Of a stretch of 41,897 bases of DNA, positions 2,614-16,425 are shown in pieces. The notes under the pieces are model-generated. The model made no database searches. It was given only the letters and a program-made list of their open reading frames with translations, and was not told the origin of the DNA. Each line of letters starts with the position of its first letter. Positions within the stretch are counted from its first letter, which is position 1. Origin of the DNA: a virus. The translations under genes were made by a program, and so were the position numbers. The stretch lies in the IMG/VR virus record IMGVR_UViG_3300027826_000012, positions 1 to 41,897 of that record. One strand, given 5' to 3'.

Positions 2614-2977
2614 CAACGAGCAAGAGCTGCCCGGATGGGTCACCAGCCACACGCTTTCGCCTGACCTCCAACGGAAGCTCGAGCAGTCTGCGGAAGGCAC
2701 AGCGCGGCAGGCCCGCGCCGCTGAGACGCGCATGCGCATGAACCCGCCCTTTGTGGTCCAGGAGGCCGACGCCGTCGTTACGCCGAAGGAGCTAGAGCAG
2801 GCCATCAAACGTCAGGAGCGGGATCTACAGTACGTGCGCGTCTCAACCGGCGTGCTGCTGTTGGTTGGAGTGCTTGGCGCGCTCGACCTGCTCGTGCGGG
2901 CCAGGGAATTCTGTAAGATGCTGGGCGTGATTCGCCGGCGGCTCTCCGGGGACGGCCCCCGGCTGAAAGGGAAGTAG
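2603..2977 (+). CDS. Small protein with one membrane segment, 124 aa
   Basis: The ATG at 2603 follows AGAGGAAG and overlaps the end of the previous gene by 11 bases. The first 90 residues are polar and charged, with a likely coiled or helical stretch (TPKELEQAIKRQERDL). Residues about 83-103 are hydrophobic (VSTGVLLLVGVLGALDLLV) and are followed by a strongly basic tail (RRRLSGDGPRLKGK). This gives a tail-anchored topology with the large N-terminal part and the basic end flanking one span. The function is unknown. A role at the membrane, for example in exclusion or anchoring, is possible. Confidence 0.65.
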   Translation: MDNNNEQELPGWVTSHTLSPDLQRKLEQSAEGTARQARAAETRMRMNPPFVVQEADAVVTPKELEQAIKRQERDLQYVRVSTGVLLLVGVLGALDLLVRAREFCKMLGVIRRRLSGDGPRLKGK

Positions 2978-2979
2978 CC

Positions 2980-3579
2980 ATGGAAGGCTTTACGCTCCAT
3001 CTGGCCGGCGACAACTTCGCCATTGTCAACCGCCTGGTGATCTTCGAGCAGATCGCCGAGGCCTTCGAAGAGGTCTTCGGCTCGCCGCTCTCGCCGCTCT
3101 CGCTGGTCTATGAGATCAGCCACAACCTGGCACAGATAGAGTGGACCGGAGAAGAGTTCGGCCTGGCCTGGGTGCATCGCAAGGGGGCGACGCGCGCCTT
3201 TCCCGCCGGACATCCCCACCTGAGAGGCACGCCCTGGGAACGCACCGGCCACCCGGTGCTCATTCCCGGCAGCAATCGCGATTATAGCTTCATCCTGCAG
3301 CCCGCGCCAGGGGCGGAGAAATGCGCCTTTTCCGTCAATCACGGGGCTGGGCGCTGCATGTCGCGCGGCCAGGCCAGGAAGGCGCTCTCACAACAGGCCG
3401 TCAATGAGGACTACGCGTCCGCCGGCATTCTGGTCAACGACATGGACGATGTTCCTCTCGACGAGGCAGGCCCTGCCTACAAATCGTCCGAGCTGGTGAT
3501 CGACGCGGTGCTTCAGGCCGGCCTGGCAACGATCCAGTACACGCTGTGGCCGCTGGCCTCGCTCAAGGGATTGAACTGA
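2980..3579 (+). CDS. rtcB-like: RtcB-type RNA ligase, C-terminal part only (199 aa)
   Basis: RtcB joins RNA 2',3'-cyclic phosphate (or 3'-phosphate) ends to 5'-OH ends using GTP and Mn2+. This protein matches the last 40% of that family: NFAIVNR (12-18), the metal-binding His of YEISHN (His48), HRKGATRAF (66-74), HPVLIPGS (91-98), the guanylylated His of NHGAGRCMSRG (His121) and the terminal ASLKG lysine. The N-terminal half of RtcB, with the Asp, the Cys and two His of the metal site, is absent, and it is not encoded by either upstream gene. The ATG at 2980 follows GGGAAGTAGCC, and the conserved block starts only about 10 residues after it, so the truncation looks clean. A tRNA gene follows 58 bases downstream, which suits a tRNA repair theme. 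Whether this is a remnant, half of a split enzyme or an RNA-binding derivative cannot be told. Confidence 0.88.
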   Translation: MEGFTLHLAGDNFAIVNRLVIFEQIAEAFEEVFGSPLSPLSLVYEISHNLAQIEWTGEEFGLAWVHRKGATRAFPAGHPHLRGTPWERTGHPVLIPGSNRDYSFILQPAPGAEKCAFSVNHGAGRCMSRGQARKALSQQAVNEDYASAGILVNDMDDVPLDEAGPAYKSSELVIDAVLQAGLATIQYTLWPLASLKGLN

Positions 3580-3593
3580 GCCCGGCGAGGGGA

Positions 3594-3623
3594 TTGACAG
3601 CGCCAGGACAGGTGTAATACAAT
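3594..3623 (+). promoter_or_regulatory. Sigma-70-type promoter of the tRNA gene
   Basis: A perfect -35 TTGACA (3594-3599) is separated by 18 bases from a -10 TACAAT (3618-3623). The predicted start of transcription falls at about 3630, seven bases before the first base of the tRNA. It begins just after the stop of the RtcB-like gene. Confidence 0.75.
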
Positions 3624-3636
3624 CCCCTCGATGTGA

Positions 3637-3709
3637 CGCGACGTAGAGCAGTTGGCAGCTCGCCAGTCTCATAATCTGGAGGTCACAGGTTCGAGTCCTG
3701 TCGTCGCTA
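3637..3709 (+). tRNA. tRNA-Met(CAU) type
   Basis: A full cloverleaf can be folded. The acceptor is CGCGACG with CGTCGCT (six pairs, with a C1/U72 mismatch). The D arm is GAGC-AGTTGGCA-GCTC. The anticodon arm is CCAGT-CTCATAA-TCTGG with anticodon CAT at 3670-3672, and the T arm is ACAGG-TTCGAGT-CCTGT. The discriminator is A and CCA is not encoded (ACCT follows). The anticodon stem lacks the three G-C pairs of initiator tRNA, so it is elongator Met or, if C34 is lysidine-modified, Ile. The first-pair mismatch is unusual for an elongator. The gene has its own promoter and lies downstream of an RtcB-like gene. The 277 bases between it and the next tRNA hold no gene that I can support. Confidence 0.85.
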
Positions 3710-3988
3710 CCTATCCCTTAAAAATTGAGACAGCACCGGCAGGGAGCAGGCCGGCTCCATCTCTTTCGGCCGAAGAGGTGGAGGAAAGGGTTTCACGTCA
3801 CTGGCTCGTTGCGCAGCATCGGCTCTGAGGGCTGGCGGTATCGATGCGTTTCGCCGCTAACAATGGTAGTCGGCTGCGGGTGATGGATGCATGTCGCGCG
3901 TAGCACATACGGCTATCAGCCAGGGATAGAGCAAAAACGTGAAGCCCAGCTTCCACTTTCGCAGGCGTCCCGACAGGGACATAAGGCT

Positions 3989-4075
3989 TTGCCCGATAGC
4001 TCAGTGGTTAGAGCGATAGGAACATACTTGATTGCTGTTCTGACAGGTGCGTGGGTTCGAGTCCCTCCGGGCAAA
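3989..4075 (+). tRNA. tRNA-like gene of uncertain isotype
   Basis: TTGCCCG (3989-3995) pairs perfectly with CGGGCAA (4068-4074). The D arm GCTC-AGTGGTTA-GAGC and the T arm GTGGG-TTCGAGT-CCCTC (one U-U mismatch) are typical. The part between them is 36 bases and does not give a normal 5-bp stem with a 7-base loop. One fold is GGAACA/TGTTCT with an 11-base loop containing TTGAT. Another puts CAT in an AACATAC loop on a weak stem, with a CTGT/ACAG variable-arm hairpin. The isotype therefore stays open, and the gene may be decayed or non-canonical. The strand is set by the T arm. CCA is not encoded. Confidence 0.6.
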
Positions 4076-4170
4076 CTTTTTCACAGCCGATAGTACCCCT
4101 TCCATTGACTGAGGTTGAATCACAGTGTAGTCTACGTGCATTCTTTGTATGTAGAAAGTGAGGCAATCCC

Positions 4171-4449
4171 ATGCAGCAATCACCACTGGCACCCTACCAA
4201 CAAGGTCTTCCATCACAAGCATCCCCCTATCAGCAACAGATGCCCCAGCAGTCGCAGCCACTCGCGACCCAGACCCAGCAGATCGTCAAATTTTATAAGA
4301 GTGGCCTCTTCCTGTTCGCCTCGGCTGCCGGCCGCATGCAGCGCGACGCTGCACAGATGCAATCCCAGGGCTGGCGTTTACAGTACGCCGCCTCGCTGGG
4401 CATGAACATCTTCCTGCGGCGCATCATCGTGGCGATCTGGGTGCACTGA
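4171..4449 (+). CDS. Small Gln/Pro-rich protein, 92 aa
   Basis: The ATG at 4171 has a GTGAGG at 4158-4163. The first 37 residues are a low-complexity tail of Gln, Pro and Ser (for example SPYQQQMPQQSQPL), probably disordered. The remainder is a folded-looking basic and hydrophobic part (QIVKFYKSGLFLFASAAGRM, and NIFLRRIIVAIWVH at the end). A weak promoter-like pair (TTGACT, 17 bases, TAGTCT) lies upstream at 4109-4137. The gene converges with the leftward HerA-like gene, only 3 bases apart end to end, with no obvious terminator between them. The function is unknown. Confidence 0.55.
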   Translation: MQQSPLAPYQQGLPSQASPYQQQMPQQSQPLATQTQQIVKFYKSGLFLFASAAGRMQRDAAQMQSQGWRLQYAASLGMNIFLRRIIVAIWVH

Positions 4450-4452
4450 TCC

Positions 4453-5880
4453 TTAAAAGAGGCGTTTGATGAGCGCCTCGATATCCTGCCCCGGAAACTC
4501 CTGCGCGAGGTACCAACGCAGCTTCGAGCGATAGCGGTAGCCGTCGTCGTGCAGCTCGCGCTCGATCACGTGCAGACGCAGGAGATTCATGGGAGGATGC
4601 CCCGTAATCGTCTTCTCCTGAACCTGTAGCCAGGCCGCGATTTCCTGGCGGGGAAGCAGGCGCTCTTCGCCGTGGTCGACTAATACTTGCAAGATACGAC
4701 GCTCCTGGCCGGGCAGGTCGGCCAGGCGCTTCACCAGCGTGGCAAACTTCCGTTCGTTGAGCGGTGGAGGCGGGGGAAGTGATGGGCTGGCCGGCGACTT
4801 CGGCGCAACGGAGGCGCTGGCCTGATCCGCCACCTGGCGGCGCAGCGCCTCCTGCGTGTCCAGCAACTTCTCGATCATCTCGCGCTGATGCGCCACCTGC
4901 TCGCGCAGTTGCGCAATCTCCTGATCCTTCGCCGCCATCTGCTTTTCCAGTTCGATGATGAACTGCTTCCCGAATGCTCGTCCACCGCCATAGATGCGCA
5001 CCGCCTGACCATCATCTGGCGAGTTTGCTTCATCCTCTGATTTGGCCAGCATCGAGCGCAGCTCCTCAAGCGTGGCGGCATCGATGGAACGCAGCTGGGG
5101 CGCGGCCTCCGCGTCTAGGGTGGGGGTCGCGCCGGCGTGGAAGGTGGCGCGCCGCCGGATCTGGACGAGCTGCGCGGCGTGCTGGTAGAGCACAATGACC
5201 TGCCCCTGGGCGAGGCCCCCGACCATCTCTTCGACTCTCGCTGGCGGCAGCGGCAGCAGGTCCTTGTAGACCTTGACGTCAATGGGATGCACGACGCGGT
5301 GCAGGAACAAGAGCGGCACCTGCGTCAGCACGTCCTTCTCGACCTTGGCCGAGCGCTGCGACGCCAGGATGATGCCCAGGCCCCGCTTGCGCCCGCGCAG
5401 GGCGATGCGCGTCAGCACGGCCTTGAGCGGGCTGCTGGCCGACTGGGGGATGAACTCGTGGGCCTCCTCCAGCACGATCTGATAGGGCTTGCGCTCTTTG
5501 CCAGCTACTTCCCACAGGCGGCTGAAGTAGGCCAGCAGGAAGGCGTGCTGCTCGTCGCTGCTGTAGTCGGAGAGGTCCAGGATGATGGAGATGCCGCGCG
5601 TGATGGAGATCTCCGCCAGCGCCGCGGCGTTTTCCGGTCCGATCTCCAGTTCGGCGTGCTCGCTTCTCCCGGCGATGAGCAGGTCGAAGCGTTCTTTGAG
5701 GCCCCAGTACTCGCCCTCAATATCGACGATCGTCATGGGCAGATTGCCGAGCAGTTCCTCGATCAGCACGGCGACCGTGTTGGTCTTGCCGCTGTCGGTG
5801 ATGCCCAGCACGCCGACGCTGCGCCCAACGAAGGTGGAGGTCTCGAAGGCGAGCGCCCCCTGCGTGTCGATGCAGAGCAT
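4453..5880 (-). CDS. HerA-like P-loop ATPase (DUF87 type) with coiled coil and winged helix
   Basis: The 475-aa protein has a Walker A motif GITDSGKT (26-33), a Walker B VLEEAHEF (136-143) and an ILASQR sensor stretch around 178. This is the signature of HerA/FtsK-superfamily ring ATPases that pump or translocate DNA. It lacks the N-terminal beta-barrel of archaeal HerA and starts almost at the P-loop. A coiled coil follows at about 308-352 (ELEKQMAAKDQEIAQLRE), then a Pro-rich linker and a C-terminal winged-helix-like domain (about 378-475). It is the last gene of a leftward three-gene set, overlapping the previous gene by ATGA. No NurA nuclease is adjacent. Likely roles are DNA handling or phage defence, which is inference. 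Confidence 0.85.
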   Translation of the reverse strand: MLCIDTQGALAFETSTFVGRSVGVLGITDSGKTNTVAVLIEELLGNLPMTIVDIEGEYWGLKERFDLLIAGRSEHAELEIGPENAAALAEISITRGISIILDLSDYSSDEQHAFLLAYFSRLWEVAGKERKPYQIVLEEAHEFIPQSASSPLKAVLTRIALRGRKRGLGIILASQRSAKVEKDVLTQVPLLFLHRVVHPIDVKVYKDLLPLPPARVEEMVGGLAQGQVIVLYQHAAQLVQIRRRATFHAGATPTLDAEAAPQLRSIDAATLEELRSMLAKSEDEANSPDDGQAVRIYGGGRAFGKQFIIELEKQMAAKDQEIAQLREQVAHQREMIEKLLDTQEALRRQVADQASASVAPKSPASPSLPPPPPLNERKFATLVKRLADLPGQERRILQVLVDHGEERLLPRQEIAAWLQVQEKTITGHPPMNLLRLHVIERELHDDGYRYRSKLRWYLAQEFPGQDIEALIKRLF

Positions 5881-11032: not shown

Positions 11033-11593
11033 ATGCCTTCCTCTCCAGCGCTGATCCGTCGCGGCAAAGTGGCCGAACAACGTCACTGCATTGACTGCGA
11101 CAAAGCATTCTCCACGATCAACAAGGCAACGACGCGCTGCCGGGCATGCCTGAATAAACGGCGAGCAGAGTTCGAGGCGCGCAAAGCCGATGGCCTCTAT
11201 CCGCCACGGCCCTGCCTGCTCTGCGGCGCGCCCTACGTCTCATCGGCCATCCGCGTGTTGTGCTGCGAGGAGTGCGAAGGCAAGCGCAAAGCCGACCCCG
11301 CTACCGAAGAGCGCTTCCAGAAGCGCGCCAAGGCCCGCCGGGAGGCGCACGCCAATCACTCCGCCCAGCTCGTCTTCGCCTATGCCGAGTTGCACCGTAC
11401 ACAAGAGGGGCGCTGCCCGATCTGCGCCCAGATACCTGAGCAACAAATGATGCTTTACCCCTCCGACCAGGAGCCCAGGGCTTTACTCTGCCAGGCCTGC
11501 GCTACCGCTGCCGCGGCGCTGGCTCACAATGCACAGCGCACCAGGCGGCTGCTATCGCTGCTGCTGGTCGGGCATGTGGTGGAAGGCTCATGA
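11033..11593 (+). CDS. Small zinc-finger protein with a degenerate endonuclease VII-like end, 186 aa
   Basis: The ATG at 11033 follows AAAGGA. Cys pairs occur as HCIDC, CRAC, CLLC and CCEEC, consistent with two or more treble-clef zinc sites in the first 85 residues. A basic helix follows (RFQKRAKARREAHANHS). The last part, GRCPICAQIP and then RALLCQACATAAAAL, has the layout of recombination endonuclease VII / HNH proteins (CxxC, loop, RGLLCxxC). The DHDH-type catalytic residues expected between the Cys pairs are replaced by MMLYPSDQ, so nuclease activity is doubtful. It may be a DNA-binding regulator. The next gene overlaps as ATGA, and the repeat array starts beyond it. Confidence 0.65.
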   Translation: MPSSPALIRRGKVAEQRHCIDCDKAFSTINKATTRCRACLNKRRAEFEARKADGLYPPRPCLLCGAPYVSSAIRVLCCEECEGKRKADPATEERFQKRAKARREAHANHSAQLVFAYAELHRTQEGRCPICAQIPEQQMMLYPSDQEPRALLCQACATAAAALAHNAQRTRRLLSLLLVGHVVEGS

Positions 11594-11868
11594 ATTCGAT
11601 TCCGATGGCTCCAGAGCAACAGGCGCGCCGCCTGGCCTGCCTGCCAATGGACCGCACGGTCACCTATTGCCGACTCTACCAGCGCCGCGGTGCCTGGGTC
11701 TACGCTGCTTACTGGAGAGATAACGATGGTAAACAGCGTAGTCTCTTCCTCGGTCGAGATGGCGAGGGCAGGATCGCTCGTCATGTTGCAACGCATCGGC
11801 CTCCTCATCCATGGCGACACAAAAGGGCAGGAAGGTCAAAAATCCTGAAGTATGCGGCTAAAGTGTAG
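11590..11868 (+). CDS. Small basic protein, 92 aa
   Basis: The ATG at 11590 overlaps the stop of the zinc-finger gene (ATGA), so translation is coupled. The core VTYCRLYQRRGAWVYAAYWR followed by DGKQRSLFLGRDGEG has the strand pattern of small DNA-binding or recombinase-arm-like domains, but this is only a resemblance. The C-terminal tail is very basic (HRPPHPWRHKRAGRSKILKY). The stop codon TAG is the centre of the first AAGTGTAGTG repeat, so the gene runs into the repeat array. A protein encoded next to such an array is a natural candidate to bind it, which is inference. Confidence 0.6.
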   Translation: MNSIPMAPEQQARRLACLPMDRTVTYCRLYQRRGAWVYAAYWRDNDGKQRSLFLGRDGEGRIARHVATHRPPHPWRHKRAGRSKILKYAAKV

Positions 11869-12344
11869 TGGCATGTAGTGCCGTAGAAGTGTAGAGAAAC
11901 TTGCTTTTTCTCTACACTTTTTGTTTGCCTGGCAGGAAGTGTAGTGATCTGTAGTTACGTAGAGTGTAGAGATGTAGTATATACGCCATATCCTTCATTT
12001 TTCTCTACACTTTCTCCCCAGGAGCCTGCTCTATAAGAAAGTGTAGTGGATTATATATTACTCTCTACATATCTACACACACTACATCTATACAGAACTA
12101 TATTTTATTACACTTTTCTGAGGCTAATTGGCTTCTCTCCATTCTCTACACTACACCAGCATTACAGGTCACTACACTTTTTGAGCACGAACGCACCGAC
12201 CTTCCTGCTTGAAGAGGCAGAATCGGAAGTGTAGAGATTTCTCTACACCAGAATACCCCACGTCGCGGGAGAAAAAATCAATTGATTGCATTTTCTCTGC
12301 TTCGCTTGCCTCCTGTAGATGGTGTAGAGAGCTTCTCTACACTT
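11861..12344. repeat. Array of about 13 AAGTGTAGWG repeats in both orientations; possible origin, operator or packaging site
   Basis: About 600 AT-rich bases (11869-12469) carry no gene. Direct copies start at 11861, 11887, 11937, 11962 (GAG variant), 12039, 12227 and 12320 (GGTGTAGAG). Reverse copies (CWCTACACTT) are at 11910, 12003, 12144, 12170, 12241 and 12335. Several degenerate ones (TGTAGTG, CTCTACAT, CTACACAC) lie between them. Three close pairs form hairpins: 11887-11919, 12227-12249 and 12321-12344. Spacing is irregular. Such clusters are known as iterons of replication origins, multi-operator arrays, or terminase-binding sites such as the R sites of lambda cos. The terminase small subunit gene starts 126 bases later. 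Confidence 0.9.
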
Positions 12345-12469: not shown

Positions 12470-12955
12470 ATGGCGACGAAGAGGACCAGGCATCCGGGTG
12501 GGCGACCTGCGAAGCTCACTCCAGAGGCGCAGGCATCCATCGTTGAGGCAATCGATCAAGGCTGCTTTGACTACATTGCTGCCGAGGCTGCCGGCATCAC
12601 GGCGCGCACCTTTCGCAACTGGATAGAGCGAGGCGAGAAGGCTTCGAAAGGACCGTATCACGATTTCTACCTGGCAGTGATGCAGGCGCGGGCGAAGGCG
12701 CGAATAACGGCCGAGAAGCGTGTCTGGCTGGAGGATCCATTCAAGTGGCTGCGCTTCGGTCCGGGGCGCGAGAAAGCCGGGCGGCCAGGCTGGACCGACG
12801 GTACGGAGGAAGCCGCCGACGCGCTGGCCGGTATGGCCGATACGGTCATCAAGACGGTGTGGGGCCGTGCCGATCGCGATCCGCCGCCTCAACCCAGGCA
12901 GGAGGACCCTGCCGAAACATCACCCATGCAACAGGAGGGCCCAATCAGTGGCTGA
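12470..12955 (+). CDS. terS: Terminase small subunit-like DNA-binding protein
   Basis: The 161-aa protein begins with a basic tail and the motif GGRPAKLTPEAQASIVEAI, then an HTH region (DYIAAEAAGITARTFRNWIERG, about 36-57). This is the usual N-terminal architecture of small terminase subunits. A helical middle follows (YLAVMQARAKARITAEKRVW), then a Pro-rich polar tail. It recognises the pac or cos site and brings the DNA to the large subunit. The ATG at 12470 has only a weak GCAGG upstream. It is the first gene of the late cluster, with the large terminase five genes downstream. The AAGTGTAGWG array just upstream is a candidate target for its HTH. Confidence 0.8.
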   Translation: MATKRTRHPGGRPAKLTPEAQASIVEAIDQGCFDYIAAEAAGITARTFRNWIERGEKASKGPYHDFYLAVMQARAKARITAEKRVWLEDPFKWLRFGPGREKAGRPGWTDGTEEAADALAGMADTVIKTVWGRADRDPPPQPRQEDPAETSPMQQEGPISG

Positions 12956-13484
12956 GCAGACAGCAAAGAATCCTTTTTCAGGCCGAGTGCGCATAGAGAG
13001 CTCCGATGGCATCTTTTACAATACGCGGGTCACCGACCTGGATTCTGGTGCGAACATTCCCTTTGTCTACGCTTATGAGTTCCGGCTCGGCGGTGATTCT
13101 CACACCGGAAACAAGGTCACGTTGACCTGCATTGCCGCGGTCGATGTGGTAGCTGAGGCTTCTTTTCGCCTGCTTTGTCCTGGCTGCTTCCAGGATGCGC
13201 TTGACTCGCATTTCATGGAAACTGTTTCGCCAGACTGGCCTCTCTGCCTCATCTGCAATCGGCCTATCGTCCCGCCTCATCATCGTGACTGCATTTGCAA
13301 TTCCTGCCACCAGGCGCGCGCTGAACAAGATGCGCAGGGCGCGGATATGTATACATGGGATGATCTCCAGCAGGCGATGATTGTCTACGACAAGGTGCGC
13401 AGCAAGCGGCAGGCTGATATCCTCGCGCAGGAGTATCTGGCACCCATCGATGGAGAACTTCTTGCAGAGGAGGGCAATCCATGA
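12948..13484 (+). CDS. Unknown 178-aa protein with a Cys-rich domain
   Basis: The GTG at 12948 has AGGAGGG nearby and overlaps the small terminase gene by 8 bases. The N-terminal part is strand-rich (RVRIESSDGIFYNTRVTD). The middle holds CPGC, CLIC and CNSC pairs (about residues 77-128), with HH and H residues in between, which fits one or two zinc-binding knuckles. The end is helical and acidic. Its position between the two terminase subunits suggests a packaging-associated factor, possibly an HNH-type helper, but no catalytic His pattern can be confirmed. Confidence 0.65.
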   Translation: MAEQTAKNPFSGRVRIESSDGIFYNTRVTDLDSGANIPFVYAYEFRLGGDSHTGNKVTLTCIAAVDVVAEASFRLLCPGCFQDALDSHFMETVSPDWPLCLICNRPIVPPHHRDCICNSCHQARAEQDAQGADMYTWDDLQQAMIVYDKVRSKRQADILAQEYLAPIDGELLAEEGNP

Positions 13485-14029
13485 CCTGCATTGTCGGCCT
13501 GGTCGATGGTGACGGCACGATCTATATGGGCGGCGATAGCGCCGGTGTGGGCGGCTACGCGCTCACTGTTGTCAAAGCGCCGAAGGTCTTCCGCAATTGC
13601 GCGTACCTGATCGGCTTCACGGCCAGCTTCAGAATGGGCCAGCTCCTGGAGTACGCCTTCTCTCCCCCCACCTTCGACGGATATTGCCTGGAGCGCTTCA
13701 TGGTGACGACCTTTGTCGACGCGCTGCGCGACTGCTTCAAGCAGGGCGGCTACGCGCAAAAAAACAACGAGGTGGAATCTGGCGGGACGTTCCTCATCGG
13801 CTGCTATGGTCGGCTCTTTACGATTCACAGCGACTACCAGGTGACCGAGGCGCTTTGTGGCTATGACGCCGTGGGCAGTGGCTGCGACCTGGCGCTGGGT
13901 GCGCTGCACGCGACACGTGATCTGCATCTTCCCCCGGCCAGGCGGATTGAACGCGCCCTGGAGGCTGCGCAGGCGCATAACATCGGTGTGCGCGGACCGT
14001 TTATCGTCGAAGAGCTGAGGAGCCTATAA
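13481..14029 (+). CDS. HslV / proteasome-beta-like Ntn hydrolase
   Basis: The N terminus MTCIVGLVDG then MGGDSAG aligns with HslV (MTTIV and IAGDGQ). Thr2 would be the nucleophile after Met removal, Asp19 sits in the conserved turn, and Lys32 lies in VVKAPKVF. LIGFTASFRMGQLLEYA (43-59) matches the HslV GFAGG region, and DAVGSGCDLALGAL (129-142) matches the GSG-YALAA motif. The 182-aa length is like HslV (about 175). It would form a ring peptidase in the cytoplasm. No HslU or other unfoldase is encoded nearby, so it may use the host's or act alone in capsid maturation or host protein turnover. ATG overlaps the previous stop. Confidence 0.8.
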   Translation: MTCIVGLVDGDGTIYMGGDSAGVGGYALTVVKAPKVFRNCAYLIGFTASFRMGQLLEYAFSPPTFDGYCLERFMVTTFVDALRDCFKQGGYAQKNNEVESGGTFLIGCYGRLFTIHSDYQVTEALCGYDAVGSGCDLALGALHATRDLHLPPARRIERALEAAQAHNIGVRGPFIVEELRSL

Positions 14030-15036: not shown

Positions 15037-16425
15037 ATGCCGAGAGAACTCACCGTCCAGCTCTACACACCGCACGCCGGGCAGATTCCGATGCACATGT
15101 CGGCGGCCAGGTTCAAGGTCGCCAACTGCGGGCGCAGGTTCGGCAAGACGCTGATGGGGTGTAACGAGCTGCTCAAGGGCGCGCTGGAGAATCCCAGCCA
15201 CCGCTACTGGTGGGTCTCTCCCTCCTACAAGCAGACCAAGATGGCCTTCGAGATGATGGCGCTGGCGGCCAGGCCGGTGCTCAAGAAAGACCCCAACTGG
15301 ACCGATTTCCGCATGGACTTCATCAACGGCAGTATCATCGAGGGCCGCTCCGCCGAGCGCTACAACAACCTGCGCGGCCCGGGTCTCGACGGGGCTGTGC
15401 TCGACGAGTGCCGCGACATCAAGCGGCAGGCCTGGTACGAGTCCATGCGCGCCATGTTCTCGGATACCAACGGCTGGGCGACGTTCATCTCGACGCCGCG
15501 CGGCCACGACTGGTTCTGGGAAATGGCGATGATCGCGCAGCAGCCCGGCGAGATCAACTACGAGTATTTCAGCTTCCCGACGGCGGCCAATCCCTATATC
15601 CCGCGCGAGGAGATCGAGGAGGCGCGCAGCAAGCTGCCTGCCGACGTCTTCGCCCAGGAGTACCTGGCGGTCTTCCTGGAGGATGGCGCGACGGTCTTCC
15701 GCGGCGTGGATCGCTGCATCGGGGGCGTGCTGGAGCCGCCCCAGCCGGGTCATTTTTACGTCATCGGCTACGACCCGGCCAAGTACCAGGACTACGCCGT
15801 GATGACGGTGGTCGATTGCTCGGTGCGTCCGCTGCGCGTGGTGGCCTGGTTCCGCTACAACGGCGTGGAATACGGCACGCAGATCAAGCGGCTGATCGCC
15901 CTCGGCCACCTCTACAACAAGGCCGGTATCACCATGGACGCCACCGGCGCGGGCGACCCGCTGCTGGAGCAGCTGCGCGAGGTCTCGGAGCTGACCATCG
16001 AGGGCTACGTGTTCACCAACACGTCGAAGAAGGACCTGGTGGAGGGCTTGCAGATCGCCATCGAGCAGGTGCAGGTCATGTTCCCCAACATCCCCGAGCT
16101 GGTCGGCGAGCTGAAGGCCTTCGGCTACCACATGACGCCTGCCAGGACCGTCGTTTACAGCGCCCCCGATGGCCTGCACGACGATTGTGTGATCAGCCTG
16201 GCGCTGGCGCTCTACGCCGCGCGCAGCGGGGGCGAGGTGGCTTTTGCCGTGGCGGGCGGCCAGGCCCCCTGGGACGCGCAGGGCCCGCAGCATATGCACG
16301 ATGCGGCGCTGCGCGACATGCGGCCCGAGCAGGCGGCGGAGATCAGGCGGCGAGAGCGTGTGGCATCGCGCATCCTGGGCCAGGCCGAGCAGCCCTGGAC
16401 GATTCCGATTCGCATGGAGCAGTGA
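15037..16425 (+). CDS. terL: Terminase large subunit
   Basis: The 462-aa protein carries both halves of the packaging motor. In the ATPase, Walker A is CGRRFGKT (31-38), Walker B is AVLDEC with Asp123-Glu124, and the coupling motif is FISTPRG (150-156). The RNase H-like nuclease has Asp246 in IGYDPAKYQ, Asp301 in MDATGAG and Asp382/383 in LHDDCVIS. It cuts concatemers and pumps DNA into proheads through the portal. The ATG at 15037 is 10 bases after GGAGG; a GTG at 15031 is also possible. The portal gene follows. The small subunit lies 2 kb upstream, separated by four unrelated genes, which is unusual spacing. Confidence 0.95.
   Translation: MPRELTVQLYTPHAGQIPMHMSAARFKVANCGRRFGKTLMGCNELLKGALENPSHRYWWVSPSYKQTKMAFEMMALAARPVLKKDPNWTDFRMDFINGSIIEGRSAERYNNLRGPGLDGAVLDECRDIKRQAWYESMRAMFSDTNGWATFISTPRGHDWFWEMAMIAQQPGEINYEYFSFPTAANPYIPREEIEEARSKLPADVFAQEYLAVFLEDGATVFRGVDRCIGGVLEPPQPGHFYVIGYDPAKYQDYAVMTVVDCSVRPLRVVAWFRYNGVEYGTQIKRLIALGHLYNKAGITMDATGAGDPLLEQLREVSELTIEGYVFTNTSKKDLVEGLQIAIEQVQVMFPNIPELVGELKAFGYHMTPARTVVYSAPDGLHDDCVISLALALYAARSGGEVAFAVAGGQAPWDAQGPQHMHDAALRDMRPEQAAEIRRRERVASRILGQAEQPWTIPIRMEQ

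Follow-up and report, generated by a model that had tools for sequence, protein, structure and literature searches.

An opposed repeat array with an AT-rich core as a candidate replication origin of an uncultured phage

We present here a dense array of short repeats, in both orientations, at positions 11861 to 12344 of a virus record from IMG/VR. The array is probably an iteron-type origin of phage DNA replication. This reading is favored because the array has a central AT-rich core and two inverted repeat sets, and because a like layout recurs behind replicative helicase genes, as judged from Chloroflexota elements and one related phage (L187).

The window, meaning the whole stretch of DNA analyzed, is the 41,897-base record and is probably a fragment of a virus genome. 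Its genes are in phage order, with a tyrosine integrase, small terminase, and large terminase followed by portal and tail genes, and its right end falls inside or just past the tail genes. Judged by its integrase gene, the phage is temperate. The features used below are as follows, with the strand given where one was assigned.

1-41,897: IMG/VR virus record IMGVR_UViG_3300027826_000012, linear, 41,897 bases
4453-5880, minus strand: HerA-type (DUF87) ATPase, with a homologue in relative L317
8547-9521, plus strand: tyrosine integrase, a marker of a temperate phage
11033-11593, plus strand: 186-aa cysteine-rich (zinc) protein with weak endonuclease VII similarity
11590-11868, plus strand: 92-aa basic protein, stop codon within the first repeat, no family match
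11861-12344: whole repeat array, AAGTGTAGWG with core TGTAG, both orientations; 9 exact copies, 21 TGTAG cores
11861-12048, plus strand: left iteron set with 10 TGTAG cores (right-pointing, 8; left-pointing, 2)
11887-11899/11907-11919: head-to-head copy pair, hairpin with a 13-bp stem and a 7-nt loop
about 12050-12110: AT-rich core (77% AT), candidate DNA-unwinding element
12063-12179, minus strand: inner right iteron set, 6 TGTAG cores, 6/6 pointing left
12227-12344: outer right group of 5 mixed-orientation cores, including two pairs that form short hairpins
12227-12250: short hairpin, copy pair of the outer right group
12320-12344: short hairpin, copy pair of the outer right group
12470-12955, plus strand: terminase small subunit (TerS) with HTH, 126 bp past the array
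about 15037-16425, plus strand: terminase large subunit (TerL), P23-45/G20c-like, 30-35% identity

The call of a small terminase at 12470, made earlier from sequence, is backed by a match to PHROG 4102 (E = 2e-14). Between terS and terL lies an HslV-family peptidase-like gene (13481-14029; PHROG 1040, E = 5e-21). Near the left end of the record, positions 2980-3579 encode the C-terminal part of an RtcB RNA ligase, and two tRNA-Met genes (3637-3711 and 3989-4076) adjoin this partial gene; the region is possibly cargo or host sequence. In an identity comparison of the RtcB fragment, the best match reached 67%, and a clear host was not indicated.

Statistics and layout of the array

All nine exact copies of AAGTGTAGWG in the 41.9-kb record lie within 11861-12344, five in forward and four in reverse orientation, and the reversed control pattern has 0 matches in the record. 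Between 11850 and 12360, the motif is present 9, 11, and 17 times at 0, ≤1, and ≤2 mismatches, respectively, against 0.01, 0.15, and 1.5 copies expected from dinucleotide shuffles (maximum, 1, 2, and 6). The 21 TGTAG cores compare with 1.9 expected (maximum of 8 in 1,000 dinucleotide shuffles). The sequence-only reading of this DNA had counted at least 13 nearly complete copies, a fair number, and the comparison with shuffled sequence, named beforehand as a check, confirms the array (11 copies with at most one mismatch versus 0.15). Its structural details were likewise found in place: the TAG stop codon of the upstream open reading frame (ORF) lies inside the first copy (11861-11870), three hairpin-forming pairs are present (11887-11919, 12227-12250, and 12320-12344), and the approximately 480 bases of the array hold no convincing gene. 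The array strand folds much more strongly than shuffled sequence (z = -9.1). An Rfam search of the region matched no family, promoter and terminator scans of the array found nothing, and BLASTN searches of phage and plasmid sequences with the array gave no matches.

Two properties are additional to what had been observed before, namely, the AT-rich central core and the opposed halves. The core, in the middle of the array, surpasses every other 60-bp segment of the record in AT content. The orientation of cores in the left set differs from that in the inner right set (8 right- and 2 left-pointing versus 0 and 6; Fisher p = 0.007) and from that of all right copies (3 right- and 8 left-pointing; Fisher p = 0.03), p-values that lend mild support only, because the split point was picked after the data had been seen. 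Two points weigh against an origin here: the outer right copies break the symmetry of the array, and the GC skew near 12 kb shifts weakly.

Arrays in Chloroflexota elements and related phages

Helicase-gene flanks were surveyed in a sample of 400 Chloroflexota genomes, taking the 350 bp 3′ of the stop codon and scoring an array where one 7-mer was present at least 6 times in this flank. Arrays were found behind 10/15 DUF927 genes (Fisher, 4e-16 versus controls) and 6/28 DUF3987 genes (Fisher, 2e-7 versus controls), although the effective number is smaller because some loci are near-duplicates (L276/L277, L275/L282, and L301/L303/L304/L305). Among control genes, which were drawn from other contigs, 2/435 had a 3′ array, one being the L187 DUF3987 helicase gene, so that 1/434 remain without it. 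The helicase-flank arrays often start 3 to 40 bp past the stop codon. Two opposed sets around an AT-rich core are the common form (>>>>><<<<<< in L283 and L301 and <<<<<>>>>> in L316), and the repeat word in DUF927 and DUF3987 flanks is element specific. In one genome of 1.5 Mb (G053 C1), what is apparently the same DUF927 element, with the same iteron array, is present three times (L277, L281, and L284).

L029 and L286 are one and the same DUF927 element, which repeats GTGTAGA, nearly the word of the window (AAGTGTAGWG), in the arrangement >><>>>>><< with an AT-rich core. It resembles the window in this near-identical word, in its two opposed sets and AT-rich core, and in an array that runs from the stop codon; it differs in that its array adjoins a DUF927-like helicase gene, and the two have no common protein neighborhood that was found. 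A word common to such unrelated elements may be a coincidence, because the same six bases occur in unrelated Bacteroidales tandem repeats. Scans of viral contigs and genomes for two- or three-copy patterns returned mostly microsatellite-like tandem repeats beside unrelated housekeeping genes, and the shared GTGTAG word alone was therefore rejected as evidence. A strict three-copy pattern scan of genomes gave no matches.

When the 92-aa protein, TerS, and TerL were each searched singly against viral contigs, no close relatives of the phage were found. More distant contigs were reached through the product of 15037-16425, by alignment of large terminases. In viral contig L187, with a TerL 44% identical to that of the window, a DUF3987 gene is followed directly by an array and then by HTH genes, terS, and terL; the array consists of nine TGGTTGC copies, some forward and some reverse, that surround a 93%-AT core. 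This phage contig is like the window in its related terminase, in the place of its array, with early genes on one side and terminase genes on the other, and in the mixed orientation of the copies around an AT-rich core. It differs in the iteron word (TTGGTTGCAA array), in the helicase gene directly upstream of the array, and in the three small ORFs that separate the array from terS. In L261, a short array of TGTTGCC copies, forward and reverse, comes after an AAA_25 helicase-like gene and over 2 kb ahead of terS. A search of related phages for the motif beside terS had been named as a check. In L187 and L261, the only two relatives informative on the linkage, the arrays adjoin the helicase gene instead and lie 1.5 to 2 kb from terS.

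Repeats of other kinds were seen in further contigs and genome regions. At 4620-4875 of L172, opposed GGTGTCAGGT-type repeats stand behind a non-helicase gene near terL. The array signature is thus not perfectly specific, and the occurrence of such dense opposed arrays without an adjacent helicase gene is a point against the origin reading. The phage contig L186 (TerL 45% identical) has 11 TGCAAG copies in both orientations over an 85%-AT stretch (3000-4080) that has an integrase gene and a tRNA-like sequence next to it; the rest of this locus is also fairly rich in TGCAAG. At about 2700-2850 of L186, three GGGATTGAAAC-type repeats resemble a miniature CRISPR array within the phage contig. L179 and L180 are regions of two 10.7-Mb Chloroflexota genomes, with noncoding stretches of at least 1 kb (2700-4100 and 3160-4930, respectively) that hold palindromic GTTCAnnnnnnTGAAC arrays about 6 kb upstream of the terL gene. 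L180 also carries blocks of further short repeats (TGTCTGTCTGG and GGGCTGGTGG).

Known replicons and candidate initiators

The origins of SaPI and other PICI elements lie directly downstream of rep and consist of two iteron sets flanking an AT-rich region, an organization that, among known replicons, has been ascribed to PICIs alone (PMC6092414). In SaPI Rep, iteron recognition resides in the C-terminal domain, and SaPIbov1 Rep has a relative in Cch, a DUF927 protein (PMC7581432). Both DUF927 and DUF3987 proteins have been predicted to be helicases of mobile-element replication (PMC5862659). The window shares with these origins dense short iterons in a noncoding stretch, two iteron sets that flank an AT-rich region (p = 0.03 for all sites and 0.007 for inner sites), and an array that begins at the end of the upstream gene. 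It differs in that this gene encodes the 92-aa protein rather than a rep helicase, no Rep was recognized in the record, the iterons are of mixed orientation inside the sets, and the window belongs to a phage with capsid and tail genes rather than to a satellite. Because the array does not adjoin a rep helicase gene, we class it as working like a PICI-type replicon and not as a member of that group. The putative origin at SCCmec cch2, where short iterons are bound by the helicase C-terminal domain (PMC7581432), likewise has short iterons, downstream of the helicase gene, but these are only three and direct, with no large opposed array.

In the favored reading, an initiator, which would be a helicase equipped with a DNA-binding domain or else a small protein that binds origins, would attach to the TGTAG iterons in their two mutually facing sets and melt the AT-rich core that lies between them (about 12050-12110). 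Two helicase complexes would then load facing apart, giving bidirectional copying. Initiator binding, melting, and origin activity at the array are inferred. The gene for the initiator would lie outside the fragmentary record, or else the initiator would be among the unrecognized proteins, of which the 92-aa one encoded at 11590-11868 is an example.

No DUF927, DUF3987, AAA_25, or other replicative helicase and no initiator were recognized in the scanned ORFs of the record, and the gene directly before the array encodes the 92-aa protein, which matched none of the protein families searched; both observations count against the origin reading. The helicase gene of the phage may be situated past the left end of this record. 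In L317, the homologue of the HerA-type ATPase adjoins a DnaB-like helicase gene, and the replication module of the phage may therefore be of the DnaB type. Within the gene just upstream of that DnaB-like helicase gene (L317, 4539-5999), AATTAGAA occurs seven times, recalling the iterons within lambda gene O.

The 92-aa protein is an unproven candidate for binding the array. A single-sequence fold gave a four-strand beta model of low confidence (pLDDT, 61), for which the best PDB match was a PUR-alpha domain (E = 0.08), to be taken as a lead only. Three weak genome matches of the protein were rejected as reading frames unlike relatives. It would be surprising, though conceivable, if the protein were a new kind of initiator, small, beta-rich, and without a helicase domain, that recruits a host or distant phage helicase to a SaPI-like origin.

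Alternative functions and significance

With early genes before it and the late operon, headed by terS, after it, the array would also be well placed for a multisite operator, at which a phage regulator bound to the repeats controls the early-to-late switch or the transcription of terS, and opposed copies fit a dimeric regulator. We consider this unlikely: some 20 copies over 480 bp with a central AT-rich core exceed the usual needs of an operator, the scan of the array found no sigma70-like promoter, and comparable arrays elsewhere come after helicase genes. A terminase recognition (pac) region, where TerS binds the repeats and starts packaging, would explain why terS starts 126 bp beyond the array, and the SPP1 pac region likewise has repeats near terS (PMC4737164). 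Yet the arrays of L187 and L261 are next to a helicase gene and at a distance from terS, the DNA-binding domains of SF6 and SPP1 TerS ignore repeats, and other pac TerS proteins bind weakly and without sequence preference. The pac-type small terminases that have been studied bind DNA with little sequence preference (PMC4737164, PMC9611059). Since the arrays of the relatives are not with terS and pac-type TerS proteins show so little preference, a pac function appears quite improbable. Of the candidates listed from sequence (iteron origin, operator, and terminase site), the origin is thus the one now favored, and the terminase site is disfavored.

Two further readings find little support. One is a phage-plasmid partition centromere, to which a ParB-like or RHH protein would bind. 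Relative L317, which has the HerA ATPase in common with the window, carries a ParA-like gene together with a likely RHH partner, and short repeats in both orientations make up some centromeres. In the scanned ORFs of the window, a fragmentary record, no ParA or ParB gene was recognized. The presence of an integrase in the window and the AT-rich center of the array, which a centromere would not be expected to have, speak against this role, and a centromere is highly doubtful. The integrase gene itself could point to attP arm sites, as some integrases bind 10-bp arm sites, but the array is 2.3 kb away from int and has neither a tRNA nor an attachment core as a neighbor (the two tRNA genes lie at 3.6 to 4.1 kb), and twenty copies are far above arm-site needs; such a role is extremely improbable.

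As a probable replication origin, the array gives a testable origin for an uncultured phage. Opposed, element-specific iteron sets that enclose an AT-rich core and stand at the 3′ end of an early gene offer a simple signature by which the origins of mobile elements may be recognized from sequence alone. The survey extends the PICI-like organization to DUF927 and DUF3987 genes across Chloroflexota, and the finding that each element has its own word points to fast coevolution of initiator and origin.
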